Shown: positions 2,905 to 35,168, numbered from the stretch's first letter. The stretch is 39,251 nucleotides of DNA from a virus (IMGVR_UViG_3300017687_000002:1-39251), one strand, 5' to 3'. The notes: a model not told the origin generated them from the sequence alone. Numbers and translations: made by a program.

Positions 2905-2933
2905 TTGACCTGGGCCATGTTACGGCCTTACAT
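2905..2933 (+). promoter_or_regulatory. Candidate sigma-70-type promoter before the packaging operon
   Basis: TTGACC at 2905-2910 is followed after 17 bp by TTACAT at 2928-2933. The -35 is good and the -10 is weak. The last base of the -10 is the first base of the palindromic motif copy a, so a bound regulator would cover the start point. Confidence 0.35.
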
Positions 2934-2954
2934 TACAGTTAGCACTTCATGCAA
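2933..2954. promoter_or_regulatory. Operator-like palindrome, copy a
   Basis: One of eight copies with consensus TTACAGTAAGC followed by ACTTACTGTAA (here TTACAGTTAGC/ACTTCATGCAA). It lies just before the gene pair leading into the large terminase and overlaps the first possible ATG (2949) of the next frame, which argues for a later start there. Confidence 0.6.
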
Positions 2955-3200
2955 CCGAAGGGATATGGCACCTTGGCTGAAACGCAACTAGGCGATCGGG
3001 CTTTCGGTAGCAGGCCCCGCCCCGGCGATTTACGGGACGCGGTCATTTTCAAGGTCATGGGGCCAGGCTGCAAGGGTTGCGTAAAGGACCCCTGTCCAGC
3101 GCCCGAATGCCGCATGAAAGCATTTCACGCCTATTTCGCGGCAGTCAGGGAGGGGCTGGCCGATGAAAAGGCCCGAATCAGCATGATGCAATGGGAATGA
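2949..3200 (+). CDS. Small Cys-containing hypothetical protein upstream of terminase
   Basis: The frame from ATG 2949 gives 83 residues. Because that ATG lies inside the palindromic motif and has no ribosome-binding site, the TTG at 2973, preceded by AAGGGA at 2958-2963, may be the real start (75 residues). A cysteine cluster CKGCVKDPC-PAPEC sits in the middle and may bind metal. Position suggests a terminase small subunit, but no helix-turn-helix is evident and the protein is shorter than most of those. It ends 21 bp before the terminase. Confidence 0.55.
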   Translation: MQPKGYGTLAETQLGDRAFGSRPRPGDLRDAVIFKVMGPGCKGCVKDPCPAPECRMKAFHAYFAAVREGLADEKARISMMQWE

Positions 3201-3221
3201 CACCAGCGAGGGCCCGGCCAT

Positions 3222-4688
3222 ATGACCCCAATGGACCTTAATAGGGCGATCAAGTACATGGTTGAAGAGCTTCAGGCTCTTAATCGTATCGAACTGCGAA
3301 AATACCAGCTAATTGAAGCCTATAAGATTTTTGCCTCTATCCTCCTGGTCAGGGGCGAAGAGATCACCCAACTCTGGGCCCGCCAGATCGGCAAAACGGA
3401 GTTGGGCAAATGCATCATTATCACCTGCATGGTCCTTTTGCCTTCCATGGCCGTCGATCCCCACTGGTCCAGGCTCTTCCCTAAGCTGATTCAATACAAA
3501 GACGGGTTTTGGGTCGGCTTCGTGGCCCCCAAGTTGGACCTGGCCCGGATTCCCTTCAAGCGGATCAGGACCGCCCTGGGCAGAAGTCACCAGGGTTACC
3601 TGGCCCGGCACCTTCGCCGAATGCGGGTCTACATCGAAGTCAGTAACAACTCTGAATTGCTTCTAAGCAACGGGTCGCGGGCCCAGGCCATGAGTGGTTC
3701 GGAGTCGGCATTTGTGGAGGGCGAAACCTTCCACTATCTGCATATGGAAGAGGCCCAGGAGCTTAGTCAGTTTGTCGTTTATAAGAGCCTTCACCCCATG
3801 GTCGCGTCCACGAACGGGACCATCGTCAAGGTGGGGACGGCCAGCGTCAAGCGGGGAAGCTTTTTTGAGTCGATCCAGTTCAACAAGCGCAACAAGCCCC
3901 ATAACCATGGGGAATATGACTGGCGGTGGGGCTGTGAGGCGAATGACAACTACCGGATCAAGGTCCTTCAGGAGCGGGAGCGCCTAGGGGCCTTTTCCGA
4001 TGAATTCAGAATGGCTTATCTCCTGGAGTGGCTATTCAGATACGGCATGTTGTTCACGCCTGAAGTCTGGGACAAGATGATCGCCGACGGCCAGGCCGGG
4101 CGGCCCCATTTCCAGCGCGGCGAATTCACTAAAGGCAGGCGCAAAGTCTACGGCCTGGACCTGGCCAAGGTTCAAGACGCCACGGTCCTGACCATGGGCG
4201 AAGAGTGGGACAACCATATCAGGGTCATTGACTGGGTCTACCTGGAGGGCATGGACTACGAAGACCAGTGTGACGCCGTGGCCAGCGCGATCAAGGCCGT
4301 GGGCCTTGGGTCTATCGTGGTCGATCAGACCGGCGTGGGCGATCCAGTCATGGACATGCTTTACCGGCGGCTTCCCCGCCGGTCCCTTCACGGCCTGGTC
4401 TATAGCCTGTCCAGCAAGGACAAGCTGATGAAGCTGGGCCAGGCCGAATCTATCAATGGGCGGCTTTTCTACCCAGAAGGCAACCCCCTAAAAGACCCCG
4501 ACCTTCGCCGGTTCCACGAACAGTGCCTTGACTGTGAGGTCGAGCGCAAAGGCAACTTCACCGTCTACCACCACCCCACGGGCAACGATCGCAAGTGTCA
4601 TGACGACTTTGTGGATAGCGCCCTGAATATGGTTTACGCCGCCAAGGAAGTCCGGGACCCAAGCAGCTACGGTGGCACAACTTACTAG
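3222..4688 (+). CDS. terL: Terminase large subunit
   Basis: This is the ATP-driven motor and nuclease that cuts and packages phage DNA into proheads through the portal. A deviant Walker A (ARQIGKTE, residues 53-60, K58) and a Walker B followed by the catalytic Glu (HMEEAQE, 174-180) define the ATPase. The RuvC/RNase H-like nuclease shows GLDLAKVQDAT (D313), VVDQTGVGD (D368) and HDDFVDSALN (D461/D462) as the metal-binding acids. The length of 488 residues is typical. It is followed by a small protein and the portal, the standard head-module order. Confidence 0.93.
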   Translation: MTPMDLNRAIKYMVEELQALNRIELRKYQLIEAYKIFASILLVRGEEITQLWARQIGKTELGKCIIITCMVLLPSMAVDPHWSRLFPKLIQYKDGFWVGFVAPKLDLARIPFKRIRTALGRSHQGYLARHLRRMRVYIEVSNNSELLLSNGSRAQAMSGSESAFVEGETFHYLHMEEAQELSQFVVYKSLHPMVASTNGTIVKVGTASVKRGSFFESIQFNKRNKPHNHGEYDWRWGCEANDNYRIKVLQERERLGAFSDEFRMAYLLEWLFRYGMLFTPEVWDKMIADGQAGRPHFQRGEFTKGRRKVYGLDLAKVQDATVLTMGEEWDNHIRVIDWVYLEGMDYEDQCDAVASAIKAVGLGSIVVDQTGVGDPVMDMLYRRLPRRSLHGLVYSLSSKDKLMKLGQAESINGRLFYPEGNPLKDPDLRRFHEQCLDCEVERKGNFTVYHHPTGNDRKCHDDFVDSALNMVYAAKEVRDPSSYGGTTY

Positions 4689-4699
4689 GAGTCAGAGCA

Positions 4700-4987
4700 A
4701 TGCGGCTAGACGGCAACATGATCATTTGTGATCCCAACGATCCCCGTGACGCTGAATGGCTGGCCCAGCTTGTGGACCACGCGAATCAGCAGCGCGGGAT
4801 TCATTCGGCGATCAACTCACTGGCCAAGGCCTTGGGCGATTCTGAGGCGGCCATGACCGACATGGTAGCCGTGGCCGCTGAAGCCCTGGGCACCCAACTG
4901 ACCAATGGATTTTACGTCAGGGACCGGCTGAACGTCGTGGAACTGGCTGACGATGGCGACGGCATGACCGCTGTCACCATCCAGTAA
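4700..4987 (+). CDS. Hypothetical protein between terminase and portal
   Basis: A 95-residue protein preceded by TAGGAG, eleven bases after the terminase stop. It is acidic, mostly helical in appearance (HANQQRGIHSAINSLAKALG) and has a short C-terminal part that could form strands. No family recognised. A place between terminase and portal is common for small head-assembly or regulatory proteins. Confidence 0.7.
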   Translation: MRLDGNMIICDPNDPRDAEWLAQLVDHANQQRGIHSAINSLAKALGDSEAAMTDMVAVAAEALGTQLTNGFYVRDRLNVVELADDGDGMTAVTIQ

Positions 4988-5001
4988 GGCACAAAAACAT
5001 C

Positions 5002-6519
5002 ATGGCGAACAAAAAAAGCACCAGCATCTGTCATCCCCTTTACGACGCCCGGCTTGGGGATTGGAAATTCTTGCGGGATCACTATGAGGGCGGGCGGCAC
5101 TTCGCCACCAAGGGCTACCTTCAGCGCCACCCCTCTGAGTCTGACGACGGCTTCAAGTCCCGTAAGGATAGGGCGATTGATTACCGCAACTTTCCCGAAA
5201 TGGTGATCAGCATCTACATAACCCACCTGTGGCAAAAAGAGCCTTCACGGGCGGGCTTCCCCAAGCCTATTCAGGACTTGTTTACCAACGTGGACAACCG
5301 GGGCACCGACGCTGACACCTTTTTCAAGCGTACCGCCACCGACTCCATGGTGGAGGGGATCAGCTTTGTCCTGGTGGACATGCCCCGGATTCCCCAAGGG
5401 GCCCGCGTCCTGACCAAGGCCGATGAAATGAGCCTGAACCTACGGCCCTACCTGGTCCCCTACGGTCCCCAGCAAGTGGTGGACTGGTCGATCGAAACCA
5501 AGGACCCCGCCCGAATGGGGAAGTTCAACTGGGTTGTCTTGAAGGAAGACCTACTGATCCCCGAAGGCGGGGAAGACGTCCCCTTCACCAAGCGCAAGGA
5601 AGCCACCCAGTTCAAGGTCATCTATCGTGACCGGTGGGAAGTCTGGGTGAACGACGCCGAAGGCAACCCCGTCAAGACCGAAGAGGGGCCCCACGGCTTT
5701 GGCGAAGTCCCCCTGGTCCCCTTTTTCAACGTGAAGCGGGGGGACATGGATGGGGCCAGCGCGATCAAGGATATTGCCCCGCTGGCTTCCAAGCTGTTCA
5801 ACAAGCTGAGTCTATTGGATGAAGCTGAATACTGGGCTGGTATCCCGGTCCTGTTCATCTTCAGCAAGGCCGTGGTTACCAAACTGGGCCTGGGCCAGGT
5901 CAGGGCCGTGGGCCTGGACCCGGAAGACCGGGCTGAATACCTGCAACAGAGCGCTGACGCCATTGAGGCAATCAGGCGATCCTGCAACGGACTGGTCCAG
6001 CATATCCTGCGCCTGGCCCTAAAGCAGGTGTCCGAGCAAAAGGAAACTTCCCAGGTCGAATCAGCTGACAAGAAAAAGATGGACCGGGAAGAGTTCGTGG
6101 GCACCCTGGCCGACAAGGCCGCCAACTTTGAAGACGCCGAAAACCGGGTTTGGGCTTTCGTGGCCAAGGGCCTGAAGCAAACCTTGCCTGAAAACGCCAT
6201 GGCCACCTATAACCGGAAGTTTGAAGCTGACCGGATCGCTGAACAGCTTGAAGAGGCCGTCAGCGTCCAGGCCCTGAGCCTGCCCAGCAAGTCCTTCCAC
6301 CTGGAGTTTTACAAGCGCTTGACGGCGGCGATCCTTTCTGACGCCAAGCCTGACGACCTGGCCAAGATCGCCAAGGAACTGGAAGCCTGGTCTGCCGAAA
6401 ACCAGGACGACGCCATGGCCTCTTCGGCTGATCGGATTTACAAGGAAGTCCGGGCCAAGCTGGACGCCGAAACCCCTGGATCGGAGCCCCCGGCGGTCCA
6501 GCCCCCGGCGGCGAAGTAA
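5002..6519 (+). CDS. Portal protein (DUF4055/SPP1-like group)
   Basis: The portal forms the dodecameric ring at one capsid vertex through which DNA enters and leaves. The 505-residue length, the N-terminal HPLYDARLGDWKFLRDHYEG region, and the central LASKLFNKLSLLDEAEYWAG region (near residue 265) followed by IPVLFIF match DUF4055-type portals. The gene sits between the terminase and a minor head protein, as expected. The C-terminus ends in a Pro/Ala-rich tail. Assignment rests on remembered family features plus position. Confidence 0.85.
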   Translation: MANKKSTSICHPLYDARLGDWKFLRDHYEGGRHFATKGYLQRHPSESDDGFKSRKDRAIDYRNFPEMVISIYITHLWQKEPSRAGFPKPIQDLFTNVDNRGTDADTFFKRTATDSMVEGISFVLVDMPRIPQGARVLTKADEMSLNLRPYLVPYGPQQVVDWSIETKDPARMGKFNWVVLKEDLLIPEGGEDVPFTKRKEATQFKVIYRDRWEVWVNDAEGNPVKTEEGPHGFGEVPLVPFFNVKRGDMDGASAIKDIAPLASKLFNKLSLLDEAEYWAGIPVLFIFSKAVVTKLGLGQVRAVGLDPEDRAEYLQQSADAIEAIRRSCNGLVQHILRLALKQVSEQKETSQVESADKKKMDREEFVGTLADKAANFEDAENRVWAFVAKGLKQTLPENAMATYNRKFEADRIAEQLEEAVSVQALSLPSKSFHLEFYKRLTAAILSDAKPDDLAKIAKELEAWSAENQDDAMASSADRIYKEVRAKLDAETPGSEPPAVQPPAAK

Positions 6520-6525
6520 CCAGCC

Positions 6526-9500
6526 ATGGCGCAAGTACCGAAGCTAAGTGATCAGCCCCCTGACGCGGTTGACTACAACAAGTGGTCGAACGCCGAAGTT
6601 GAAAAGGTCAAGGCCTACTATGAAGCCGGGTTTAAAGGAATCCAGGCTGAACTGGCCCAGGTCCTTGCTAAACAGGCAACGGGTAAGCCGGTGGGCCCGG
6701 CTACCCAGCTTCGCCTGAAGTCGCTCCTGGAACACCTGAACGCCGAAGTGGCCAAGATGAACAAGGCGATCGGGAAGGCCGTGGTGGACATGATCGACCA
6801 GGCCGCCACCATGAGCAAGGCCGAAGTCCAAGACATGGCCCATAGCGAAGCCAGCTTTGCTATGTTCCAGTCTACCGGGGAAGCGTCCTACCTTCGGGAT
6901 ATCGCCCTGATCAAGGAAGTGGCGGCCAGTACGATCAATAGCTACGGCCACGCCATGGTCAGCGCCTGTGAGCAGCATATCAAGCTGGGCGTCGTCCAGC
7001 GTTCCCCCTGGCAGGAGATCGCAAACAAGGTCAGGGGCGAATACGGGGCGGCTGGTGAGCCCTGGGGCAACAATATGGGCAAGTACGGGTCTACCGGCGC
7101 GGCGGCCAAGGCCGCCCGGCTGGTCAGGACTGAGCTTTCCCGCATGAGGACGATCACCCATAAGCAATATACCGACAATGACAAGGACGTGATTGGGATC
7201 AGGGTCAACTTCGGCGGCGGGGCCTGCCCTGGTATCTGCCAGCCCAAGGCCGGGGCCTACTACTACCACGACAGGACCAAGAAACGGGGCAAGGGCCCCG
7301 ACGCCCGCGTGATCATGGCCAAGATGCCCTTCCACCCGAATTGCCGGTGTTTCGTCAATTACATTTACCGGCCCCTTGACTGGGAAGGCCTGGAAAAGCA
7401 GCTTTCCCAAGGTGACGCCTTTGGGGAGCTTCAGGCCATGATCCAGAACGTGGCGCTTTCCCCCGGAGCCACGTTCATGAGCCAGGCCCAGCTTATGGAC
7501 GTTCATGCCAAGATCAAAAAGGCCCATGGCCTGGGCCTGATTACCGACGCCGAACTGAATGACCTGACCGGCGGCTGGACGTCCCACGCCATGAAGTACC
7601 AGGACCTGGTGGCCGACTTGCCCCGTGCGACGCTCCAGACCCACGCCTACAGCGCCCTAGAACTGAATGGTGCGACTGATCAGCATACCTATCTGAGCAT
7701 GAAGGGCCTGAAGGACCTAGCCATGGCCGTCGATCCCGGCGCCCTGGCGGCCAAGGTCAGCGCGGCCAAGGAAGCCTTGGCCTGGCGTGATCTCCTGGCC
7801 AAGGACGTGGCCGACCTGAACAAGGTGGTCAACGGCCAACTGGACACCTACAAGGCGGTCATCGACGCGGCGGCCCAGGTCCAAAGCGTGAAGGCCAAGC
7901 TGGCCCAGAACGAGCCCCTAATCAGCAAGGCGGCGGTGGCCGATCTGGACGCCAAGGTCCCGCCCTTCACCAAGGACAACTGGGTCGGGTCCCTAACCAA
8001 GGCCGAAAAGGCCAAGGCCGTGGCCGAAAAGCTGGGCGGTGATCCGGTTGCACTAGAGGCCATGAGTCACCTCGCCCTGGGCAAGGCCCTGGCCGGGGAA
8101 ACTAAATTCCTCGACAGCGCCATGGACCTGATCACGGTCAGCGCCAAGGTGGCCACCTTCGACCCGTTCAAGGCGGCGGCAGAGTTGAAGGGGGCGGGCG
8201 GGGACAAGCTGTTCAGCGCCCTGGGCGCGGCGGCTGAATTGTCCATGGCCATGGGGACGGCCCAAGCGCTCCTGAATAGCGGGACCCTGACGGCCCAGTC
8301 CCACCTGATCCTGAAAGGCCAGATCAAAACCCTGGCCGCTGACTTCCAAAAGGCGGTTACCGCCGGGGTCACGGCCAAGGACCTGATGCCGGTTTTCCTG
8401 AAGGCCAGTGGCCTTCCCAGTGCGGCCAAGAGCTACACGACTAAGGCCGATATCGTGGCCCACTACCTGGCCGAAAGCAAAGCTGATCAGGCTAAGATTG
8501 TGACCAAGATCAAGGACTTATGGGAAGAGAGCAAGGCCAAGCAGGCGGCAAAGAAAGCGGCAAAGAAAGCGGCAGGCGCTGACGCGGCGGCGGCTCTGAT
8601 CAAGGCAGAGGCTGACGCGGCGGCCAAGGCTCAGGCCCAAGCCAAGGCAGAGGCTGACGCGGCGGCCAAGGCCAAAGCCAAGGCAGACGCCAAGCTTATG
8701 GCTGACTGGCTGAAGGCGGGCAAGGCAGAGGCCAAAGCCAAGGCCAAAGCCAAGGGGGACGCCACGGCGGCGGCCCTGGCCCCTCAGATCGAGAAAATGC
8801 AGGCGGCGGCCCAGGTTAAAAAGGATGCCTTCCTGGAAGCCAAGATCAAGGACCCCGACGGGACCATGGCGAAGGCCGTTACCGACTTCAAGCTGAAGAT
8901 CAAAACCACGACCTACGGCAACGCCCTGGACGCGGTCAAGGCTGACGTCATGCTTGTGGCCAAGACGGCCCTGAAGATGACCGATGCCCAGGCGGCGGCC
9001 TGGTTCGCCTCTGTCAAGGCCAAGCCCATGCAGGCGGGCCAGAACCTGGAAAAGGTCCTGGCCCAGGTCCTGGCGAACAAGAAAGCGGCCTTGGCCGCCC
9101 CGGCCCCTGAGCCCGCACCGGCCAAGGCAGTCGGCAAGTCCCCGGCAGAGTTGGCCGCCTGGGATGAAATGGCCAAGGTAGCGACCAACGCCGCCAAGCT
9201 TTACGACCAGGGGTCTGTTGCGATTGGCGACGTCAACAAGTACGTCGGGGACGCCTTCATGAAGGCGTATGCCCTGGCCCACCCCGGTTTATCTCAGACG
9301 GCGCTTAAGGCCGCCTGGGGGGAAATGAAAATTGGGCTTACCCCTGAATCTTTCGAGGGCGCGGCCCTAGCTTTTAAGGCCCCTGGGGCTGAAATCCCTT
9401 CGGTAAAGAACACCGTCATCGGGGCCGTAAAGGCCCCCAAGCCCGCACCGGCCCCGGTGCCCACCCCGGAGCCAAAAGCCGCTCCTGTGGCGGCTCAGGC

Positions 9501-12180
9501 CCCCGTGGCCCCTGTTCTGCCCGACGCCTACACCAGCCCGGTCAAGGCTGGGTTGACGGGCTATCATACGAAGTATTATGTCACGGGTCCCGACGGCGGG
9601 AAGTACCTGTTCAAGCCCCCGGCGGCGGGGGAATCCTTCCTGGCCTACGCTGATGCCTTCGCCGCGACCATCGCGGCCAAGGTCAACCCGACTGTGGCCG
9701 TCCCGGCCAAGGTGGTCACGGTTGGCGGCCTGGGCCTGGGTAGTGTTCAGCCCTGGATCGAAGGCCTGAAGGGCGTCAACAGCCTGACCAAGATTCCTAA
9801 GCCGGTCTTGGACCAGCTAATGGCCGAACACGTTGTGGACTGGTTCATTGGAAACCATGACACCCACGGGGCCCAGTTTTTCTTCAAGGGCACCGGCAAG
9901 AAAGCCACCCTGGTCCCTATCGACAAGGGCAACGCGGGCAAGTTCTGGTTTGACGGGAACGAAGTCCTGGGCAAGAGCTTTGACCCCATCGCCAAGGGCG
10001 GTAGCGTTTACTGGAAGGTCTACCAGGCGGCCAAGGCCAAGCTGATTCACCCCGACCCCAAGGCCACCCTGGACGCGATCAAGCGCCTGGAAGCCATGAC
10101 CGCCGAAGAGATCGTGGCGGCGGCCCAGCCCTACGTTGAAGCGCGGGCGGCCCAGACGGGCATGGACGCGGCCAAGGCTTACAAGATGCTCCTGAAGCGC
10201 CAGGCGACTGTCAGGCACGACTTTGAAGTCATGCTGAAGGACGTCTATGGCCCTGACTTCACCTTCGCTGATATCGAAGCCAGGATTGTGGCTGCGACCC
10301 CGGCCAAGGCCCCGGTCACCAAGGCGGCCAAGAAAGCGACCCAAAACAAAAAGATCGTGGTGGAGGACGTTGACGCGGCCATAGTGGCTAAGATCGTGGA
10401 ATCCAGGTCCAACGGCTACACCCTGCGCCGGGACAAGGGGGATATCGAAGACCTTCAGGTCCTGGCCTGGCAAGAAATTGGCCCGGCTGGTGAACCGATC
10501 GGCAAGCTTCACTTCAAGCTGAATGAAAAGGCCGGGTTGCGGATGGAAGAGATCATCAAGGCCAAGGCCAAGTTCGTGGAAGCCCCCAAGCAAGCCACGA
10601 CTGGGGCCAAGCCCCTGGCCGGTGATGTCTACTGGGCCGACATTCTTCCCGCGATTAAGACAGTCAACTACCACAACGCCAAGGGTGACTGGGAGTACAG
10701 TCCTAGCAAGCTTTCCCAGGCCCTGACCATGAAGGCTTCGCTCCTGAGCCTTTTGGAGACTGGGACGGCGGCCCATAAGAAAATGGCCAAGGCCTATCTG
10801 GACATTCTGGACACGCTGGCGGCCCATAGCGTGAAGGATGCGCCCCACCCCCAGATTCCCCAGGTAAACCAGTACAAGGAAGCGGTCAAGCCGCCCACGG
10901 CGGCAGAAAAGGCAGTCGCGGCGGCCAAGCTACAGGCAGAAATCGAAGCATCTGGCGGCTTTACTGTGGAGATCAAGCAAGTCCGGGTGGATAACAAGAA
11001 ACTGGAAAAGGGCTATTTGAAGCATACCGACGGCGGGGATTCTGAGCTAAGGTATTTTGAGCATATGAAGGAATACGTCCTGACCTACCCCGACGGGATG
11101 AAGATCACTTATCAGCCCCACGGGACCTTCCCGGAAACCTGGACCAATGCCCAGTTTGCTATGAGGGGAGACACCAACCTGACTATGCCCAAGGGGAAGG
11201 CCCTTACCCCGGCCATGATCGAAGAGGCTTTCACCCGCCTAGGCAAGCTTGGGGTCGATATGGCCAAGGCCCATCCTGACTATGTTGAACTGTTGTACCT
11301 GCAAAAGCAGGCCTATTACAGGAACATCGACCGGGAACCTGGCTATGCCCAAGTCTGGGGCGATCAAACCCTGGACCCCGGAGCCAAGGTCAAGGCGATC
11401 AAGGAATGGCTTCTGGCAGAGCATGGAATTAAGACCGACGGCAACCCCCTGTATCAGCCGAACGGCTTCGGGACGGCCTTGGGCAACGGTCCCCGCAACG
11501 TGGGCCGCTTCGACCTGACCCCGGCCCAGATCAAGGGCCTGGCCGATAAATACGTCCTGGTTCACCACCTGCATAGCGGGACCGTTCCTGAAGCGTTGGA
11601 CATAATCCTGAATAGCGGCGGTAGCCTGATCTCCACCCTGGACAAGGCCCGGCGCGGCGTGGGCCCCAAGGGTATGAGCCCGGCCCAGGACCTGGAGTCA
11701 GGCGGCGCGGCCTATGTCTTCACTAGGGTCAGGACCCGCGAGACTTGCGGCAAGCCGGGGTATCAGTATGACGAGCCCCACCTAGTCTTCAAGGCCACGG
11801 CGGCCTTACGCCTGGATAGCTTCCCGTCGCTTAGTGACCATTACGGGGACGTGGGCGGGCGGTCTGGCAACCTGGACGTGGTCAGGAAGCACCGGCAGAC
11901 GCTGCCCACCCAATGGCGCACCTTGGCGAATAGCCAGCACAACAGCAACGAAACCACCTTCAAACACGCTCTGAATTTGCTGGATGACGTCGAAGCTATT
12001 TTTGTGGGGAGCGCAACCCAGCGCCAGGAAGCCCTGGACGTTTTTAAAAAGCACGGGATCACCCACGTTACTGATGGCCGCTCCATCGAAGACGTGATCA
12101 TGACCAAACACGAATTTATGGAAAGGCCGCGTTCCTATGACCTGGACACCAAAAACCCGCTTAAGCACCTCACCAAGTGA
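6526..12180 (+). CDS. Giant minor head protein with kinase-like and ADP-ribosyltransferase-like regions
   Basis: At 1,884 residues this far exceeds a normal minor head protein (300-500). Residues about 1-285 look like an SPP1 gp7/Mu F head-morphogenesis domain (RTELSRM near 200, PFHPNCRCF near 269). A helical, Ala/Lys-rich region follows (about 290-860, extreme at 668-770), then Pro-rich linkers. Residues about 1003-1246 resemble a PI3/4-kinase- or HipA-like kinase: K1030 in YLFKPP, IGNHDTHGAQ (D1112) and VPIDKG (D1133). The C-terminus (about 1670-1884) resembles an ADP-ribosyltransferase-like fold: H1683 in HLHSGT, Y1730 in GGAAYVFTR and E1809 in NETTF. The function of the added domains is inferred; they could be ejected into the host. 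Confidence 0.85.
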   Translation: MAQVPKLSDQPPDAVDYNKWSNAEVEKVKAYYEAGFKGIQAELAQVLAKQATGKPVGPATQLRLKSLLEHLNAEVAKMNKAIGKAVVDMIDQAATMSKAEVQDMAHSEASFAMFQSTGEASYLRDIALIKEVAASTINSYGHAMVSACEQHIKLGVVQRSPWQEIANKVRGEYGAAGEPWGNNMGKYGSTGAAAKAARLVRTELSRMRTITHKQYTDNDKDVIGIRVNFGGGACPGICQPKAGAYYYHDRTKKRGKGPDARVIMAKMPFHPNCRCFVNYIYRPLDWEGLEKQLSQGDAFGELQAMIQNVALSPGATFMSQAQLMDVHAKIKKAHGLGLITDAELNDLTGGWTSHAMKYQDLVADLPRATLQTHAYSALELNGATDQHTYLSMKGLKDLAMAVDPGALAAKVSAAKEALAWRDLLAKDVADLNKVVNGQLDTYKAVIDAAAQVQSVKAKLAQNEPLISKAAVADLDAKVPPFTKDNWVGSLTKAEKAKAVAEKLGGDPVALEAMSHLALGKALAGETKFLDSAMDLITVSAKVATFDPFKAAAELKGAGGDKLFSALGAAAELSMAMGTAQALLNSGTLTAQSHLILKGQIKTLAADFQKAVTAGVTAKDLMPVFLKASGLPSAAKSYTTKADIVAHYLAESKADQAKIVTKIKDLWEESKAKQAAKKAAKKAAGADAAAALIKAEADAAAKAQAQAKAEADAAAKAKAKADAKLMADWLKAGKAEAKAKAKAKGDATAAALAPQIEKMQAAAQVKKDAFLEAKIKDPDGTMAKAVTDFKLKIKTTTYGNALDAVKADVMLVAKTALKMTDAQAAAWFASVKAKPMQAGQNLEKVLAQVLANKKAALAAPAPEPAPAKAVGKSPAELAAWDEMAKVATNAAKLYDQGSVAIGDVNKYVGDAFMKAYALAHPGLSQTALKAAWGEMKIGLTPESFEGAALAFKAPGAEIPSVKNTVIGAVKAPKPAPAPVPTPEPKAAPVAAQAPVAPVLPDAYTSPVKAGLTGYHTKYYVTGPDGGKYLFKPPAAGESFLAYADAFAATIAAKVNPTVAVPAKVVTVGGLGLGSVQPWIEGLKGVNSLTKIPKPVLDQLMAEHVVDWFIGNHDTHGAQFFFKGTGKKATLVPIDKGNAGKFWFDGNEVLGKSFDPIAKGGSVYWKVYQAAKAKLIHPDPKATLDAIKRLEAMTAEEIVAAAQPYVEARAAQTGMDAAKAYKMLLKRQATVRHDFEVMLKDVYGPDFTFADIEARIVAATPAKAPVTKAAKKATQNKKIVVEDVDAAIVAKIVESRSNGYTLRRDKGDIEDLQVLAWQEIGPAGEPIGKLHFKLNEKAGLRMEEIIKAKAKFVEAPKQATTGAKPLAGDVYWADILPAIKTVNYHNAKGDWEYSPSKLSQALTMKASLLSLLETGTAAHKKMAKAYLDILDTLAAHSVKDAPHPQIPQVNQYKEAVKPPTAAEKAVAAAKLQAEIEASGGFTVEIKQVRVDNKKLEKGYLKHTDGGDSELRYFEHMKEYVLTYPDGMKITYQPHGTFPETWTNAQFAMRGDTNLTMPKGKALTPAMIEEAFTRLGKLGVDMAKAHPDYVELLYLQKQAYYRNIDREPGYAQVWGDQTLDPGAKVKAIKEWLLAEHGIKTDGNPLYQPNGFGTALGNGPRNVGRFDLTPAQIKGLADKYVLVHHLHSGTVPEALDIILNSGGSLISTLDKARRGVGPKGMSPAQDLESGGAAYVFTRVRTRETCGKPGYQYDEPHLVFKATAALRLDSFPSLSDHYGDVGGRSGNLDVVRKHRQTLPTQWRTLANSQHNSNETTFKHALNLLDDVEAIFVGSATQRQEALDVFKKHGITHVTDGRSIEDVIMTKHEFMERPRSYDLDTKNPLKHLTK
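8601..8672 (+). repeat. Tandem 42-bp coding repeat (Ala/Lys-rich)
   Basis: A perfect 30-bp repeat occurs at 8601-8630 and 8643-8672, giving a 42-bp (14-residue) period that encodes AEADAAAKA units. It sits in the low-complexity helical section of the giant minor head protein and keeps frame, so it probably extends a helix or spacer. Confidence 0.8.
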
Positions 12181-12577
12181 GCTTGCCCGGCAGTTGAACG
12201 ATATGTCGGGTATGGGCATGTTTCTAAGCAAGGCCGAATGGAAGGTCCCGGTCCTGATCAGCGAAGTGGTGACCTTTGAGCCCATGGCAGACGGGGCCAT
12301 TGCCAGCTTGCTTCTGATTGAGCCCTTCGGGAATGGGCCCCAACACGCCCATGTCATGCAGCCGGTGGTCTGGACCCAGTTCCTGAACACCGATGGCACA
12401 CCTTTTTCCAACGCCCTGAAGGTCCTGAATGCCGACGGGGAAGAGTTCACCCTGTGCGAGATCGAAGACGATGAACGGGAACTGGAGATCATGGAAGCCT
12501 GGCATGAGTTCAGGGACCTGAATCCAGGCTACTGGGAGCAAATCGTGGGCGGCTTCACCTTGGGCAAAAGGATTTAG
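12137..12577 (+). CDS. Acidic hypothetical protein downstream of the giant head protein
   Basis: The frame starts at ATG 12137, overlapping the previous gene by 44 bp, with GGAAAGG just upstream; a second ATG at 12203 would avoid the overlap but has no visible ribosome-binding site. The 146-residue product is acidic (IEDDERELEIMEAWHEF) with mixed strand and helix. No family recognised. Its place right after an ADP-ribosyltransferase-like C-terminus would suit an immunity or chaperone partner, but this is only positional. Confidence 0.65.
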   Translation: MTWTPKTRLSTSPSELARQLNDMSGMGMFLSKAEWKVPVLISEVVTFEPMADGAIASLLLIEPFGNGPQHAHVMQPVVWTQFLNTDGTPFSNALKVLNADGEEFTLCEIEDDERELEIMEAWHEFRDLNPGYWEQIVGGFTLGKRI

Positions 12578-12584
12578 GGAGATC

Positions 12585-12968
12585 ATGGAGATCAAGCAAG
12601 ACATTCTGTTCTTTATTGAATCAGAATTCGGTGATGAAGGGTCAGACCCCATCGCCATTTGGGCCACTGACGGGGGAGTCCTGGAAATCCTCTACCGGCC
12701 TGGTCCCTACGGGGACCGGCTGGACGAATGGCAGGAAATTTTCTGGCCGGGCGGCGGGCCCTTGGTCCTTCCCCCGGCCCTGAAGCTGGACCTGGCGGGA
12801 ATGCGCCACCTGAGCCAGGGCGTCGGCTACTACTACGCCGGGTCAGCCGTTTTCCAGACCAAGGATGAAACCGGCGTCTTGGGCTTCACCACCTGGGCCC
12901 AGGAACACCTGGACGAATTGGAAGCCCGCTGCAAGGCGGCCTGGGTAAAGGGAAGTACGGTGATCTAA
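12585..12968 (+). CDS. Acidic hypothetical protein
   Basis: A 127-residue protein with GGGAG eight bases before the start. It is rich in acidic and aromatic residues (LFFIESEFGDEG, EWQEIFWPGGG) and contains YYYAGSAVF. Its stop overlaps the next ATG by one base (TAATG). No family recognised. With the preceding gene it forms a pair of small acidic proteins between the minor head gene and a neck-type gene. Confidence 0.65.
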   Translation: MEIKQDILFFIESEFGDEGSDPIAIWATDGGVLEILYRPGPYGDRLDEWQEIFWPGGGPLVLPPALKLDLAGMRHLSQGVGYYYAGSAVFQTKDETGVLGFTTWAQEHLDELEARCKAAWVKGSTVI

Positions 12969-13438
12969 TGGCCTTCAATGTAGTCTTCCAGATCGGCAAG
13001 TCCCCCAAAGGCGGGATCAGCATGACCGTGAACCAGATCATGACCCAAAGCGAGAACCGGAAGAACACGATCATCAAGTTCATGGAGCAAATTTTCAAGC
13101 TTGAAGGGGAAAGGATCGCCCGCCTGGCCCAGCGAATCCTGAATCCGATCTACACTGACCGGCGGGACTGGTACGTCAGCGGTCAGCTTCGGGACCGAAT
13201 CAAGTACACCACCAAGATCGGGGCCGTCCCGCCTGGGCTCAGGGCCGAACTAGGCGACGTCATGAACGGCATGTTCGTTGTGGTCTGGAATGAAGTCCCC
13301 TACGCCCGGCTTCGCCATTACACCAACAAGGCCCACCCTCAGACCATCGGTTACTTCACGATCGCATTTCACAAGTCGGTCAAGTCCCTTACCCTCCAGT
13401 TGGGCAAGTTGGCGAAGGCTTTACAGAACACCCCCTAA
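12968..13438 (+). CDS. Head-tail joining (HK97 gp10-like) candidate
   Basis: The 156-residue product has an N-terminal helix and a central region with SGQLRDRIKYTTKIG and a hallmark-like EVPYARLRHYTNKAHPQTIGYF. A YA-R-x-H/E-Y-T segment before a Pro and a GYF is typical of HK97 gp10/minor structural neck proteins that help join head and tail. Assignment is by motif memory and head-module location. Its position before, rather than after, the capsid gene is unusual but not rare. Confidence 0.5.
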   Translation: MAFNVVFQIGKSPKGGISMTVNQIMTQSENRKNTIIKFMEQIFKLEGERIARLAQRILNPIYTDRRDWYVSGQLRDRIKYTTKIGAVPPGLRAELGDVMNGMFVVVWNEVPYARLRHYTNKAHPQTIGYFTIAFHKSVKSLTLQLGKLAKALQNTP

Positions 13439-13483
13439 CAGCGCCTTTTTGGTTTGACAGCCCAGGCTCTTGCGTCGTAACTT

Positions 13484-13505
13484 ACTTAGTAAGCACTCAC
13501 TGTAA
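13484..13505. promoter_or_regulatory. Operator-like palindrome, copy b
   Basis: Reads ACTTAGTAAGC/ACTCACTGTAA; the right half is close to the consensus. TTGACA at 13454-13459 lies 30 bp upstream and could be a -35 for a promoter whose start the palindrome would cover. It precedes the scaffold gene by 51 bp. Confidence 0.6.
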
Positions 13506-13556
13506 TTGTATGGTGAGCCTAAAACTAATGAGTTCGACATAGGAGATATCCAACAA

Positions 13557-14348
13557 ATGGCTGACCCCATCAACACTCCGGGCGGGAACGCCCCCCCCGG
13601 TGCTGGAGCCCCCGACGGCGGGACCGGTGATCCCGGTCAAAATCAGGGCGGCGAAAAGACCTTTACCCAGGCTGACGTTGACCGGATCGTTAAGGAGCGG
13701 ATCGACCGCACCAAGGCGACCACGTCCAAAGCCCAGGACGCCCTGATCGCCCAGCTTAAAGACCTGGAAACGCGGGCATCCACCACCGCCGAAGAGAAAG
13801 CCGCCCTTCAGGCCCAGATCAGGACCATGGAAGAGGCGACCATGAGCGAAAAAGAAATCGCTGCCCGGCGGCTGAAGGACGCCGAAAATTCCCGTCAGCG
13901 TGAAGTGGCCGAAGCCAACGAGAAAGCCACCAGTTGGGAGTCCCGGTTCAAAGACGGCGCGGTTAAGCGGTCCCTGAGTGACGCCGCCGCGAAATTCAAC
14001 GCCTTTGACCCGTCCCAGATCGTGGGCCTCTTGGCAGGCACCGCTGAAGTGGAAGCTTTGAAGGACGACATGGGCAAGGAAACCGGCGAATACGCCGTCT
14101 TTGTTCGTGTCATGGTGGACGGCAAGCCCGAACGTCTACCCGCCGCCGAAGGCGTGGAAAAGTTCATGAGCGCCAACCCCAACCTGATCAAGGCAAACGT
14201 CCAGGGCGGTAGCGGCTCCCAGGGGAGTGTGAACGCCGAGGGTAAAAAGATTTTCAAGCGGACCCAGGTAGCCGACTACACTTTCTACCAGGAGAACAAG
14301 GCCGAAATCCTCTTGGCACAAGCCGAAGGGCGAATCGTCGAGGGGTAG
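13557..14348 (+). CDS. Capsid scaffold protein
   Basis: The start is ATG 13557, set by AGGAG at 13541-13545; an upstream in-frame TTG at 13506 touches the palindromic motif and is unlikely. The 263-residue product has a disordered Gly/Pro-rich N-terminus (about 1-35), a long coiled coil (about 35-130, with repeated Glu/Lys/Arg heptads), a globular middle and a C-terminal tail. This architecture, immediately before the major capsid gene, is that of an internal scaffold guiding prohead assembly. Confidence 0.85.
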   Translation: MADPINTPGGNAPPGAGAPDGGTGDPGQNQGGEKTFTQADVDRIVKERIDRTKATTSKAQDALIAQLKDLETRASTTAEEKAALQAQIRTMEEATMSEKEIAARRLKDAENSRQREVAEANEKATSWESRFKDGAVKRSLSDAAAKFNAFDPSQIVGLLAGTAEVEALKDDMGKETGEYAVFVRVMVDGKPERLPAAEGVEKFMSANPNLIKANVQGGSGSQGSVNAEGKKIFKRTQVADYTFYQENKAEILLAQAEGRIVEG

Positions 14349-14363
14349 TTTTTTGGGTAGCTC

Positions 14364-14385
14364 CTACAGCAAGCACTAACTTCAT
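14364..14385. promoter_or_regulatory. Operator-like palindrome, copy c
   Basis: Reads CTACAGCAAGC/ACTAACTTCAT, 35 bp before the major capsid start. A small hairpin (14386-14390 with 14396-14400) and AAGGAG follow, so this gap is a compact 5' control region for capsid synthesis. Confidence 0.55.
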
Positions 14386-14420
14386 ACGCCCGAAAGGCGT
14401 TACAGATCAAGGAGTCCATC

Positions 14421-15365
14421 GTGGCTGACAGCTATACGATCCACAATTCCACCGGCGCGGGCGGTCACGCCACGTTCATTCCCGAAATTTGGGCGAATGA
14501 GGCAATCGGCGTCCTGCACAAGGCCGCGATCATGCCCCAGCTTGTCCAGCGCAACTGGGAAAAAATGATCGCCAAGCAGGGCGACACCATCAACATTCCC
14601 AAGACCGGCACCCTGACCGTCAAGGACAAGGCGATCGACACCGTGATCGTCCCCGACCAGCCCCAGGGCTCCGTGGTGCAGATCACCCTGTCCAAGCACA
14701 AGGTGGTCAGCTTCCTGGTGGAGGACGTGGCCCAGGCCCAGTCCAGCCCGGATATCATCCTGTCCTATGTCCGGGACGGCATGAAAAAGATCGCCAAGCA
14801 GGTGGACCTGGACCTACTGGGCATGTACGCCAGTCTGGCAAACAGCGTGGGCACCGGCGGGGACGGTATGTGTGACTCCAGCTTCCTGGACTCGCTCCCG
14901 ATCCTGAACGCCAAGAACAAGCTGGATACCAACGAGGCCGATGACGAGGGCCGGTCCCTGGTGATCCACCCCGACGCCGAAGTGGAGCTTCTGCGTTGTG
15001 CCAAGTTCACCAGCGCCGAACGTATCGGCAACGCGAACGCCGTGATCCAGGGCATGATCGGCAAGATTTACGGCTTCAACGTCTTCACCGATCCCCGCGT
15101 CATCCAGACCACGGCGGGCACCCCGTCGGTCACCTCCACCCACAACATGGCCTTCATTCGGGACGCCATGGCCCTGGTGACCCGTCCCCTGCCCCTGCCC
15201 GCCGCCGGTCAGGGCGTCCAGGCGGCCTATGCCGCCGTGGACGGGATCGGCATTCGGATCACCTATGGCTGGTCCCAGCAGTACCTGGGCACCTTGGTGA
15301 CCATGGACATGCTGTACGGCTTCGGAGTCGTGCAGGACGAACTGGCCACCGAGTTGCTTTCCTAA
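14421..15365 (+). CDS. Major capsid protein
   Basis: This 314-residue protein starts with GTG after AAGGAG and forms the capsid shell. The N-terminal FIPEIWANEAIGVLHKAAIM region, the middle KTGTLTVKDKAIDT and KHKVVSFLVEDVAQ segments, and IHPDAEVELLRCAKF are typical of HK97-fold capsid proteins of the P22-coat/gp5-like group. The location after the scaffold agrees. Strong translation is suggested by its good ribosome-binding site. Confidence 0.9.
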   Translation: MADSYTIHNSTGAGGHATFIPEIWANEAIGVLHKAAIMPQLVQRNWEKMIAKQGDTINIPKTGTLTVKDKAIDTVIVPDQPQGSVVQITLSKHKVVSFLVEDVAQAQSSPDIILSYVRDGMKKIAKQVDLDLLGMYASLANSVGTGGDGMCDSSFLDSLPILNAKNKLDTNEADDEGRSLVIHPDAEVELLRCAKFTSAERIGNANAVIQGMIGKIYGFNVFTDPRVIQTTAGTPSVTSTHNMAFIRDAMALVTRPLPLPAAGQGVQAAYAAVDGIGIRITYGWSQQYLGTLVTMDMLYGFGVVQDELATELLS

Positions 15366-15418
15366 GCGACTTGAATCGCCCTGGCCCAAGCGGGCCGGGG
15401 CTCCCCACTGGGTGACGG

Positions 15419-15452
15419 CGCGGGGCTTGCTTCGCCTCCTAAAAGCCCCGCG
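15419..15452. terminator. Perfect hairpin after the major capsid gene, without U-tract
   Basis: CGCGGGGCTT at 15419-15428 pairs perfectly with AAGCCCCGCG at 15443-15452, with a 14-base loop. No run of T follows, so this is more likely an attenuator or an mRNA 3'-end stabiliser than a full terminator. Confidence 0.5.
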
Positions 15453-15483
15453 TCTGATCCCAAAACCAAAATGAGGCAAGCAA

Positions 15484-15879
15484 ATGTTGGTTAAGAATCC
15501 CCACGGGCGGGAAATCTCAGTCCCCGATTCCTGGGCCCACCCCAAGGTCTGGCGTAGCTACGCCGAAGCCGGTTTCATCATCCTGGAAGGCCCCGCCCCG
15601 GTCCAGCCCCCGGTTACCCCCGCGCCCGCCCCGGCCACCCCCGCGCCGGCTCAGGCCAAGGACGACACCTTCCCCGGCCAGTGCGAGTTCACCAAGGAAG
15701 ACGGCTCCCGTTGCCGGGTCAAGGCCGCTGACGACAGTCCGTATTGTTGGCGGCATAAGCTTGTCATGGATGAACTGGCCAAGGCCGCCGAAGCGCTGAA
15801 GAACGCGCCCCCGGCCCCCGAAGCCTACCCCGTGACCCCGGCGGCCACCCCGGTTCCCGAAGCCGACCCCGTAGGCTAG
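15484..15879 (+). CDS. Pro-rich protein with DUF5763-like zinc motif
   Basis: In this 131-residue protein C67, C77, C88 and H91 (spacing C-x9-C-x10-C-x2-H) form a compact metal-binding module like that seen in small DUF5763-type phage and bacterial proteins. The motif is flanked on both sides by Pro/Ala-rich low-complexity linkers. The N-terminal part (VPDSWAHPKVWRSYAEAGF) looks like a small folded tag. It lies between capsid and glycosyltransferase genes and may be a head-decoration or accessory protein. Confidence 0.7.
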   Translation: MLVKNPHGREISVPDSWAHPKVWRSYAEAGFIILEGPAPVQPPVTPAPAPATPAPAQAKDDTFPGQCEFTKEDGSRCRVKAADDSPYCWRHKLVMDELAKAAEALKNAPPAPEAYPVTPAATPVPEADPVG

Positions 15880-15882
15880 ACC

Positions 15883-16878
15883 TTGGAACTGAAATGCATC
15901 AATCCCAAGGGGCGGCTGGTAGCGATCCCTATTGAATGGTGGCCCGACGTCATTGACCAGGGCTTCACCCTTCCCCCCTATCGTTACTACGGCAACGAAG
16001 GGAGTGACCGCATTCTGGTCAAGCGCCCCATTGGCGGCCTGGGCGATATCGTGGACATGGAGCCCCTAATCAGGGGCCTTCATAAGGAATATCCTGACTG
16101 CAAGGTGGACGTGGCTATCCCGTCCTACCTTCACGCGGCGATCCCTGGGGCCGATCGTTATTACCAGTATTCGATCCAGCCCCCTGATTCCGAATATCGC
16201 ATGATCCTGGATATCAACTGCCCGATCAACGTCTATGAAATGCTGGTTATGGATCATGGTCCCTGGAAGGACCGGTCCACCATGTTTTGTAACATCGGCC
16301 TGGTCGAAGCCAGCAAGCCCCGCCTGCCCTATTCGGTAGGCCAGGGGCACAAGTGGCTAGAGTCCAGGGGGCTTGATTACAGGAAGCCGATCCTGGGCCT
16401 GCACCCCTATTCAACCGACCCGTCCCGCACCTGGCCCCACTGGCGCGAGTTTTTGCACCTGTGGAGCGCTCAGGGCGGCCAGTCGGTCCTGTTCACGCAA
16501 AAGCAGACGACCCTGCCCCTTCCCAAGAACATGGCCTGTGCGGTCAATGAGCCCCTTCAGACCGTGTTCGATATCATGAGCGCCCTCCCCATGGCGGTCT
16601 GTTCAGACAGCGGGCTTCTGCATGTTGCCGGGGCCGTAGGGACCCCGACCATTGGTCTTTTCGGCCCGACCCATGGGCCCACCGTTTCAGCCTGGTTTGA
16701 CAGCATCACGTTTCAGGGCCCTTGCTCCCATGGCGGGCCCTGCTATTGGGGCCCCCGTTATTGCGCGGGCCCTTCCCTGGTCACCACCCCTTGCCTGGCA
16801 GGGATTGAAGCCGAAGCGGTGGTCCAGCTTATCCAACAGACGGGGCCCTTCCCCGCCGGAAGCAAGGTAACGCCATGA
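15883..16878 (+). CDS. GT9-type glycosyltransferase (heptosyltransferase-like)
   Basis: The GT9 family transfers sugars from nucleotide donors and is best known for ADP-heptose addition to lipopolysaccharide. Here the N-terminal GGLGDIVDMEPLIRGL (near residue 51), the central GLHPYSTDPSRTWPHW and the C-terminal CSDSGLLHVAGAVGTPTIG then FGPTHG (near 240) match the GT-B fold of that family. The 331-residue length is normal. TTG 15883 is the only early start and the 3' end overlaps the next gene by 4 bp. It sits inside a structural module, so a virion or host-surface target is possible; the donor and acceptor are unknown. Confidence 0.85.
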   Translation: MELKCINPKGRLVAIPIEWWPDVIDQGFTLPPYRYYGNEGSDRILVKRPIGGLGDIVDMEPLIRGLHKEYPDCKVDVAIPSYLHAAIPGADRYYQYSIQPPDSEYRMILDINCPINVYEMLVMDHGPWKDRSTMFCNIGLVEASKPRLPYSVGQGHKWLESRGLDYRKPILGLHPYSTDPSRTWPHWREFLHLWSAQGGQSVLFTQKQTTLPLPKNMACAVNEPLQTVFDIMSALPMAVCSDSGLLHVAGAVGTPTIGLFGPTHGPTVSAWFDSITFQGPCSHGGPCYWGPRYCAGPSLVTTPCLAGIEAEAVVQLIQQTGPFPAGSKVTP

Positions 16879-20091: not shown

Positions 20092-20097
20092 CCGGCG

Positions 20098-20153: not shown

Positions 20154-20175
20154 TTACAGTAAGCGCTTGATAGAA
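20154..20175. promoter_or_regulatory. Operator-like palindrome, copy d
   Basis: Reads TTACAGTAAGC/GCTTGATAGAA, with an exact left half. It lies in the gap between the terminator and the connector gene at 20203. A TTGTGA, 17 bp, TAGAAT pair brackets it and may be a promoter with the palindrome in its spacer. Confidence 0.6.
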
Positions 20176-20202
20176 TAAAAACAACCATGAACGGGAGTCA
20201 CC

Positions 20203-21805: not shown

Positions 21806-21817
21806 CACTTACTTCAT
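21796..21817. promoter_or_regulatory. Operator-like palindrome, copy h
   Basis: Reads TACCAGTTAGC/ACTTACTTCAT, with a GGAG ribosome-binding site directly after it and the tail-tube GTG eleven bases on. It overlaps the last codons of the preceding gene. Confidence 0.55.
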
Positions 21818-28579: not shown

Positions 28580-28601
28580 TTACAGTAAGCACTAGGTGTA
28601 A
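28580..28601. promoter_or_regulatory. Operator-like palindrome, copy e
   Basis: Reads TTACAGTAAGC/ACTAGGTGTAA with an exact left half. The AGGTG within its right half probably also serves as ribosome-binding site for the ATG at 28605, so the motif must lie in the transcript. Confidence 0.6.
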
Positions 28602-32043: not shown

Positions 32044-32052
32044 GGGCCTGCC

Positions 32053-32816: not shown

Positions 32817-32838
32817 CTACATCAAGCACTTACTGCAT
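32817..32838. promoter_or_regulatory. Operator-like palindrome, copy f
   Basis: Reads CTACATCAAGC/ACTTACTGCAT. The ribosome-binding site GGAGG of the next gene begins four bases after it. Confidence 0.6.
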
Positions 32839-32851
32839 TTTGGAGGCTATA

Positions 32852-33133: not shown

Positions 33134-33136
33134 GAC

Positions 33137-33760: not shown

Positions 33761-33766
33761 CGACCT

Positions 33767-34339
33767 GTGTTAGTCATCCTATCCCCCAGACCGGGCCAGT
33801 TTTGGCAACCTGGCGACATTATCTTCACGGCCCGGCCTGGGGAATATCTAACTTATTCGATCAGCGCCCATACCGACCCGAAAGCCTTAGAGGCCAAGCG
33901 CCTGGTAGCCACCCATAGCGGCGTGATCATTGACAACGCCACTGTAATGGAGTCCCGGCCTGAAGGCTTTATCAAACGCCCCTTGAGCGTCCACCTGAAC
34001 GACCCTGCCGAACTCTGTTGGGTTAAGCGCCCCAGTGGGCAGACCCCGGCCAGCGTGGCCCTAGGGGTCGATAAGGCGCGTTCCCTGGAAGGCGTCCCTT
34101 ACGACTGGGGACTTATGGCGGGCTATGCCCTTACCAACCCAGAAGACCGGAAGACGACCAAGCCCAGCATTTTTGAAGATGATGACCGGATGATCTGTTC
34201 TGAAGCCGTGGCCACGGTCCTAATGGCGGCGGCCCCTGCCCTTGCAGACCCCAATGTCGGGGCGGTCCTTGCCACCAGGCATCCAAGCTGGTGGTCACCC
34301 CAAGCGTTGAATATGGCTCTGGCCCTGTGGGAGTCGTAG
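33767..34339 (+). CDS. Permuted papain-like (YiiX/NlpC-P60-type) enzyme
   Basis: The 190-residue protein begins with GTG. PGDIIFT opens the fold, THSGVIID gives the catalytic-type His (H50), VMES the acid (E62), and MICSEAV the Cys (C144) after YDWG. This order (His before Cys) is that of circularly permuted papain-like hydrolases such as YiiX, which act on amide bonds in peptidoglycan or lipids. No signal peptide is visible. It may assist lysis or entry. Confidence 0.75.
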   Translation: MLVILSPRPGQFWQPGDIIFTARPGEYLTYSISAHTDPKALEAKRLVATHSGVIIDNATVMESRPEGFIKRPLSVHLNDPAELCWVKRPSGQTPASVALGVDKARSLEGVPYDWGLMAGYALTNPEDRKTTKPSIFEDDDRMICSEAVATVLMAAAPALADPNVGAVLATRHPSWWSPQALNMALALWES

Positions 34340-34348
34340 GAGTCCACC

Positions 34349-35146
34349 ATGGCGAAACGATCCCGAAGAATCCGGCCCCTAGAAATCTGGGTCGTGGCGG
34401 GGGACCTCCATATCCCCTTCCATGACCCAACGGCCCTAGCCCTGTTCATTGCGTTCTGCAAGTCGATCCAGCCTGACAGGGTGTTCCTGAATGGGGACAT
34501 TCTTGATTGCTGGGAAATATCCAAATTCGACAAGCCACTGTCGATCAAGCAACATCTGACTGACGAGCTAGATCAGGGCACGGCCTTTTTCAAAGCCCTA
34601 CGCTTGGCCGTCCCAGACGCCATGATCGACTGGCTCCTGGGCAACCATGAATTCCGCTGGGAACGTTTCCTGGGGAGCAAAGCCCCGGAGTTGTACGGCC
34701 TCAAGTACATGACCCTTGAAGAGCAAGTTGACTGTACCGCCCAGGGGGTCACCGTCCATAACGCCCACCTGCCTGAAACCATGGTCCAGGTGGGCAAACT
34801 CCTGATTGGGCACTTTGCCAAGGTCAACAAGCATTCAGCTTATACGGCCAAGAACCTACTAGATGAAAAGGGGATCAGCCTGATCCAAGCCCATACCCAC
34901 CGGATGGGGGCCCACTACAGGACCGACTACAACCGGACCCTGGTGGCGTTTGAAGGCGGTTGCCTGTGCAGTCTGGACCCGCCCTACCTGTCCCGGCCCA
35001 ACTGGCAACAGGGCTGGACCGTCGTGGCCAAGGACCCAGACAGCGACTTTTTCAAGCTGACTGCGGTGGAGATCATCAAGGGCCGGGTGATCTATGGCAA
35101 TCAGATGATCGAATCAGCCCCGCCGGTTAATTTGATTCCGGTATAA
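34349..35146 (+). CDS. Calcineurin-like metallophosphoesterase
   Basis: All five motifs of the family are present: GDLH (D19, H21), GDILD (D50, D53), GNHE (N99, H100), IGHF (H155) and AHTH (H182, H184). The 265-residue length is normal. Phage members act on nucleotides, RNA or DNA ends; the substrate here is unknown. It lies in a downstream accessory cluster with a nucleotide-pool gene. Confidence 0.92.
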   Translation: MAKRSRRIRPLEIWVVAGDLHIPFHDPTALALFIAFCKSIQPDRVFLNGDILDCWEISKFDKPLSIKQHLTDELDQGTAFFKALRLAVPDAMIDWLLGNHEFRWERFLGSKAPELYGLKYMTLEEQVDCTAQGVTVHNAHLPETMVQVGKLLIGHFAKVNKHSAYTAKNLLDEKGISLIQAHTHRMGAHYRTDYNRTLVAFEGGCLCSLDPPYLSRPNWQQGWTVVAKDPDSDFFKLTAVEIIKGRVIYGNQMIESAPPVNLIPV

Positions 35147-35168
35147 TTACAGTAACCACTTACTTTAA
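35142..35168 (+). promoter_or_regulatory. Perfect -10 box joined to operator-like palindrome, copy g
   Basis: TATAAT at 35142-35147 ends on the first base of the motif (TTACAGTAACC/ACTTACTTTAA, 35147-35168). No good -35 is visible. An AAGGAGG site follows directly before the GTG at 35179. If the box is used, the regulator would cover the transcription start. Confidence 0.6.

Follow-up and report, generated by a model that had tools for sequence, protein, structure and literature searches.

Dispersed along the virus record IMGVR_UViG_3300017687_000002 (one strand, 39,251 bases, referred to here as the window) are eight near-palindromic sites of 22 bp, each close to the start of a gene. The window covers roughly half of a prophage, and no early-arm or immunity genes were recognised within it. 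The eight sites belong to a set of about 27, which we read, with a probability of roughly 0.7, as the operators of one prophage-wide lysogenic repressor that silences the phage promoter by promoter.

Dyad sites in the window

The eight sites all lie on the + strand. At the left is TTACAGTTAGCACTTCATGCAA (2933–2954), preceding an open reading frame (ORF) of 83 amino acids and the terminase gene; the first bases of the site are overlapped by a promoter-like pair, TTGACC (2905) and TACATT (2929–2934), with an 18-bp spacer. Immediately upstream of ACTTAGTAAGCACTCACTGTAA (13484–13505), in which the left half is poor and the right half strong, is a second pair with an 18-bp spacer, TTGACA (13454) and TAACTT (13478–13483), and the site precedes a scaffold-like gene (likely ATG 13557). 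The major capsid gene (GTG 14421) is preceded by CTACAGCAAGCACTAACTTCAT (14364–14385), and a head–tail adaptor gene (ATG 20203) by TTACAGTAAGCGCTTGATAGAA (20154–20175), the latter spanned by TTGTGA (20148) and TAGAAT (20171–20176) with a 17-bp spacer. Shortly upstream of site 20154 is a strong intrinsic terminator (20097–20126, + strand) composed of a 13-pair stem and a T run, and a new promoter is therefore expected there; terminators were sought before every site, and a strong one was found only at this position.

Further to the right, TACCAGTTAGCACTTACTTCAT (21796–21817) precedes the major tail protein gene (GTG 21829) and TTACAGTAAGCACTAGGTGTAA (28580–28601) lies 3 bp before ATG 28605, with a weak TTGGAG-18-TATTTT pair upstream. 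CTACATCAAGCACTTACTGCAT (32817–32838) follows directly on the endolysin gene, with a small ORF coming next. The last site, TTACAGTAACCACTTACTTTAA (35147–35168), precedes a dATP/dGTP diphosphohydrolase-like gene (GTG 35179) and adjoins a TCCGGTATAAT box (35137–35147, + strand).

A preliminary description of the window had listed eight such sites in gaps just before gene starts, and all eight were found at the coordinates it gave, as were the TATAAT ending on the first base of operator 35147 (35142–35147) and the TTGAC hexamers upstream of 2933 and 13484 (at 2905 and 13454). The placement holds in general, with two departures: site 21796 includes the stop codon (TAG) of the preceding gene, and from site 2933 the terminase start is 267 bp away, while the end of the site overlaps a possible start of the 83-residue ORF (2949–3200).

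A weight matrix built from the eight sites scores them at 23.9–33.7, the next-highest match in the window scoring 10.5; in first-order Markov sequences of window length (n = 100), the best score had a mean of 9.7 and a maximum of 19.8. Leave-one-out scores range from 12.7 to 32.7, with site 13484 the weakest (12.7) and, taken alone, scarcely distinguishable from background. A coordinate-blind motif finder run on gene-start regions recovers the same family (22.5 bits versus 16.2 for shuffled controls). Shuffled sequence, a check that the preliminary description had named beforehand, contains essentially no sites, and in an independent contig the sites are strongly enriched at gene starts; neither result refutes the description.

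The prophage and its contigs

Overlapping the window is another IMG/VR record, L006, in which positions 1399–16113 match window positions 1–14715 base for base and which extends 1,398 bases further left. Within this extension, at L006:1092, is a ninth site. A pattern scan found contigs G409 and G410, of which G410 (39,737 bases) ends in exactly L006:1–1397, leaving one base between its end and the start of the window. Because L006 bridges the two with full identity, and because the attachment-site repeats (attL and attR) and an intact tRNA-Pro gene agree, G410 and the window are taken to be one prophage. The contigs were compared piece by piece; coordinates marked rc count along the complementary strand of G410, and subtracting them from 39738 gives the forward position.

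At the left end of G410 is the intact tRNA-Pro(CGG) gene (L126:220–296), and at window positions 35966–36015 is a 50-bp copy of its 3′ half, which forms the right attachment site. The distance from attL to this first attR copy is 75,456 bp, giving a 75.5-kb prophage in tRNA-Pro(CGG). In a relative of the host, contig JAIPDO010000024 of a Desulfarculaceae metagenome-assembled genome, an intact tRNA-Pro (L022:2479–2555) lies upstream of the same porin gene and represents the empty site. The host is a Desulfarculaceae-type, sulfate-reducer-type bacterium.

Sites across the whole prophage

Applied out of sample to G410, the eight-site matrix finds 15 sites scoring at least 18, one of which is the L006 site; dinucleotide shuffles give 0.03 on average. 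When the matrix is instead derived from 26 sites and symmetrised, 19 sites in G410 score above 12, which brings the prophage to about 27 dyad-symmetric 22-bp sites with the consensus TTACAGTAAGCACTWACTGYAA. The observation of eight sites is thus real, yet a fragment of a larger set: the count is correct for the window and too low for the prophage, where one further site lies at L006:1092 and 19, including that one, lie in G410.

Called ORFs occupy about 94% of G410, yet nearly all sites fall at the starts of units. In the left half of the prophage they precede replication, recombination and other early genes, and they also surround the likely immunity region; where a promoter box shows direction, that direction agrees with the genes in both arms. 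The preliminary description had proposed a late-operon control network, of which the network stands, whereas ‘late’ is too narrow for sites that also precede early genes and surround the likely immunity region. Three G410 sites (rc 27800, 31360 and 37869) are identical over 22 bp and share the same upstream TCCGGTATAAT box, pointing to recent copying of a promoter–operator unit within the phage. Operators also lie before the gene for a CobT subunit-like protein (L126:16584–18494) and before that for a neighbouring probable AAA ATPase (L126:18599–19738); similar CobT-like proteins are present in Rhizobium, Vibrio and other phages.

A pattern allowing up to three mismatches gives 8 matches in the prophage contigs and none in five host-family genomes (about 20 Mb); the motif is phage-specific. 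Searches of IMG/VR for relatives via the portal, terminase, capsid and tail proteins returned only the overlapping L006 and one distant contig, L007, and a search for a portal relative in genome contigs returned none; distant portal or capsid relatives were found in Desulfobacterota. In these distant relatives, no de novo motif rose above controls, except a start-proximal repeat in G002 (the contig of L007). That repeat precedes three genes of similar length, which are probably paralogues, and no relative showed a convincing motif of the present type. A first IMG/VR pattern scan gave seven single matches, which resemble one conserved sequence of low-GC phages.

A DNA site for a dimer

The dyad symmetry of the sites is strong (p = 2 × 10−5 for nine sites), and for 26 sites it was matched by none of 100,000 column permutations. 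The preliminary description had favoured a DNA-binding dimer over an RNA hairpin because the two halves lack compensating changes, and both points are borne out. Watson–Crick pairs across the dyad number 54 of 90, against 56.7 with re-dealt halves, and 153 of 286, against 167.5, in the 26-site set; complementarity within a site is not above that between halves of different sites but if anything below it, as would be the case if a site with one good half can make do with a poor second half. Owing to this combination of strong symmetry and absent covariation, the sites are read as DNA sites for a dimer, and an RNA hairpin is ruled out.

The palindrome is imperfect, and the left half matches better than the right at most window sites. 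The centre reads CA on the + strand in every window site except one and varies elsewhere in the prophage. At positions 5 and 18 all 26 aligned sites have the same base, and positions 9, 14 and 21 are nearly invariant, a pattern that fits a dimer making contacts in two successive major grooves.

Promoters at the sites

Scores for sigma70-type promoters are higher beside the window sites than at other gene starts in the window (p = 0.001), and the mean bipartite promoter score near 26 sites exceeds that of shuffles (z = 5.7). All nine perfect copies of TCCGGTATAAT in the two contigs abut a site, eight of them upstream and one (rc11552) directly after it. When bipartite promoters are ranked by score, eight of the top 15, among them the very best (TTGACA-17-TATTAT at rc19911), are no more than 25 bp from the centre of a site. 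Two classes can be distinguished. In one, the −10 element belongs to a TCCGGTATAAT box and its last base is the first base of the site; in the other, the boxes are TTGACA-like and the −10 element lies within about 12 bp of the site. Many sites thus overlap or adjoin promoters, with the start predicted in or beside the operator, which upholds the earlier suggestion that a bound protein would cover transcription starts.

A candidate repressor

Encoded at L127:552–875 (+ strand), against the leftward early arm, is an HTH_3/Xre-type regulator of 95–107 residues, probably 95 residues from a GTG at L127:588 with a good ribosome site. It matches HTH_3 (PF01381) with 33.9 bits (cut-off 23) as well as PHROG transcriptional repressor families, and the nearest solved structures are an immunity repressor (PDB 8bny) and a 434 repressor variant. 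A C-terminal peptidase or dimerisation domain of the Lambda CI/LexA type was not found in this protein of only 95–107 residues. Within about 760 bp beside its gene are four operators (rc19231, 19414, 19921 and 19968), one of which adjoins the gene’s own promoter and suggests autoregulation. The locus appears to have the layout of an immunity region, and from position alone we infer that this HTH_3 protein, most likely, is the binder of the sites; repression and autoregulation are inferred as well.

The main alternative binder is a D5-like protein with two helix–turn–helix units (L127:2291–2617). That the sites are operators of this protein, or of the product of an unrecognised gene, we consider a minority possibility. 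The D5-like protein matches DNA-binding and regulator families and a site stands directly before its gene, but its two different helix–turn–helix units suggest asymmetric binding, and it is the HTH_3 gene beside which operators are packed most densely and whose neighbourhood has an immunity-type layout.

A model for repression

For the HTH_3 protein as repressor of the whole prophage, the most economical model is occlusion: a phage-encoded dimer would bind each site, cover the −10 element or the transcription start and exclude host RNA polymerase. The units under the sites include those for a DnaB-like helicase, the DNA polymerase III alpha subunit, and structural and lysis proteins, and in the lysogen early, replication, structural and lysis genes would all be held off directly. 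Sites 14364, 21796 and 32817, which have no recognisable promoter, may act on weak promoters or as roadblocks to read-through. Loss of the HTH_3 protein would free all units together.

More tentatively, and at less than even odds, the prophage may represent a temperate phage that has no relayed late-gene switch, in which a tiny non-cleavable HTH_3 repressor on about 27 start-covering dyad operators would act directly on nearly every early and late unit and provide a single-layer, genome-wide shut-off, with induction by a route other than RecA-style self-cleavage. Self-cleavage of the LexA type is not expected, as the candidate is too small for a cleavage domain.

Several observations weigh against a single repressor acting in this way. 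The promoter search found nothing above background at 14364, 21796 and 32817, and the promoter matrices are of the E. coli type. Sites of the TCCGGTATAAT class are partly recent duplicates and hence not independent. One site, rc7886, is a clear exception to the placement at unit starts, being located within a small ORF. The two operators nearest the candidate gene have diverged from the consensus, and site rc17098 stands immediately before the D5-like gene. No close relative was found that shows repressor and operator changing together.

Other explanations of the sites

The motif might instead turn genes on, as an element of a promoter peculiar to the phage and read by an activator, a sigma factor or a single-subunit RNA polymerase of phage origin. 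The sites do precede transcription units, and compared by eye their CACT core shows a faint resemblance to T7-type promoters; the T7-like idea was dropped over the dyad symmetry and the spacing to gene starts. Five of the nine sites in the window and L006 end 3–14 bp before a start codon, and the ribosome site follows immediately or is part of them. With such spacing a transcription start cannot be fitted in downstream of a site used by an upstream activator; the spacing at these sites, at least five in number, also rules out a class II activator site. The dyad symmetry suits a dimer, many sites have ordinary sigma70 boxes, and no RNA polymerase domain was found among the scanned proteins of the window and G410, which represent only part of the ORFs. 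A role in activation is accordingly improbable. Still harder to credit is an element acting in RNA, either a hairpin before the ribosome site that controls translation or a start-associated sequence. Such an element could account for a palindrome near start codons and would have a conserved GCAC loop, but the halves change without compensation, random windows are predicted to fold more strongly than the sites do, and several sites are too disrupted for pairing.

Somewhat more plausible than activation, though still unlikely, is a stoperator-type network, in which the bound protein would act chiefly on RNA polymerase already elongating, stopping it between genes as has been proposed for repressors of the L5 type, with promoter overlap secondary. 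Dispersed intergenic sites just past stop codons and before ribosome sites would suit it, as would the three window sites without a visible promoter and the orientation of every window site along transcription. L5-type (Cluster A) phages have more than 20 sites, located in promoters and in the short gaps between genes and oriented along transcription; these are asymmetric 13-bp sites bound by a monomeric repressor that has two DNA-binding domains (PMC9283540). The sites described here are dyad-symmetric, 22 bp long and variable in their centres elsewhere in the prophage, and their linkage to promoters is strong, so the term ‘stoperator-like’ in the preliminary description holds as an analogy only. 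Because the sites are symmetric and many lie on recognisable promoters, a block of initiation explains them better than stoperator action. Partition, packaging or other genome-maintenance sites are a very improbable reading. Dispersed palindromes of unknown use occur in Cluster O mycobacteriophages (PMC4351075) and this phage encodes a ParB-like N-terminal domain, but it is an integrated prophage with its own integrase, and the sites are placed almost exclusively at unit starts, with promoters.

Comparison with known systems

As in dispersed-operator immunity, one type of site recurs many times in a temperate phage, in its early as well as its late regions, and stands at promoters or at the starts of units (three window sites being without a visible promoter). 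Comparable in this respect is P1, in which 22 operators dispersed over the genome serve one repressor of lytic genes, C1 (PMC8546580). Many dispersed operators and one repressor, here a candidate, are common to both; the P1 sites are asymmetric and 17 bp long, in contrast to the 22-bp dyads described here, and P1 late genes run via the activator Lpa, whereas here the late units carry sites themselves. In the phiC31 and L5 systems, 18–30 dispersed repressor sites have been reported (PMC4557955), phiC31 being a phage of a host from a different phylum. The SPBRE repeat of SPbeta was likewise first spotted in silico in intergenic promoter regions and later proved to be the binding site of the master repressor (PMC10516654); it differs in being a 15-bp motif at about ten places, and MrpR has a tyrosine-recombinase fold where the candidate here is an HTH_3 protein.

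Two further comparisons are with mycobacteriophage repeats. In Cluster K, SAS and ESAS repeats are tied to gene starts, and the ESAS, which are inverted repeats of imperfect match, have been proposed as sites for a DNA-binding protein (PMC3203893). The start-associated sequences (SAS) are asymmetric 13-bp repeats that include the ribosome binding site, unlike the sites described here, and the ESAS, of unknown function, have two 17-bp arms and a spacer. In Cluster O, each genome has more than 30 dyad sites of 17 bp with predicted dimer binding (PMC4351075); these lie mostly away from promoters, one third of them within genes, in phages that are not evidently temperate.

The prophage thus probably works like P1, L5, phiC31 and SPbeta, and differs from them by its 22-bp dyad operators on early and late promoters and, probably, by its small HTH_3 protein. 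Dispersed operator systems have been described in only a small number of phages, and how they work has been studied best in mycobacteriophages, where the sites are asymmetric and bound by a monomer. If the present reading is correct, genome-wide direct repression would have arisen on more than one occasion, from different proteins and differently designed sites, here in a symmetric form placed on promoters and covering early and late genes of a Desulfobacterota prophage. The operator and the TCCGGTATAAT box would then offer a sequence handle for mapping transcription units and immunity groups in phages of uncultured relatives of sulfate reducers.

Other features of the prophage

Beyond the attachment site, the window contains a second copy of the same 50-bp att stretch (38046–38095). 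Between the two identical copies (35966–38095) lies a 2.08-kb stretch that encodes a tyrosine integrase (36881–37933, − strand) and an NYN-domain protein (36303–36872). Since the prophage has its own integrase near attL (L126:2549–3628), this stretch looks like either a small integrative element in its own right or a second insertion in tandem at that tRNA-Pro.

Following the portal gene is a gene for a protein of 1,884 residues (window 6526–12180), in which only a short minor-head/MuF-like match near the N terminus was found, the rest having no match in PHROGs or Pfam. Also encoded in the window are a ThyX (Thy1) thymidylate synthase (1508–2254) and, soon after the major capsid gene, a glycosyltransferase of family 9 (15883–16878). 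The phage DNA polymerase III alpha subunit (L126:11958–15278) carries a uracil-DNA-glycosylase-like domain at its C-terminal end.

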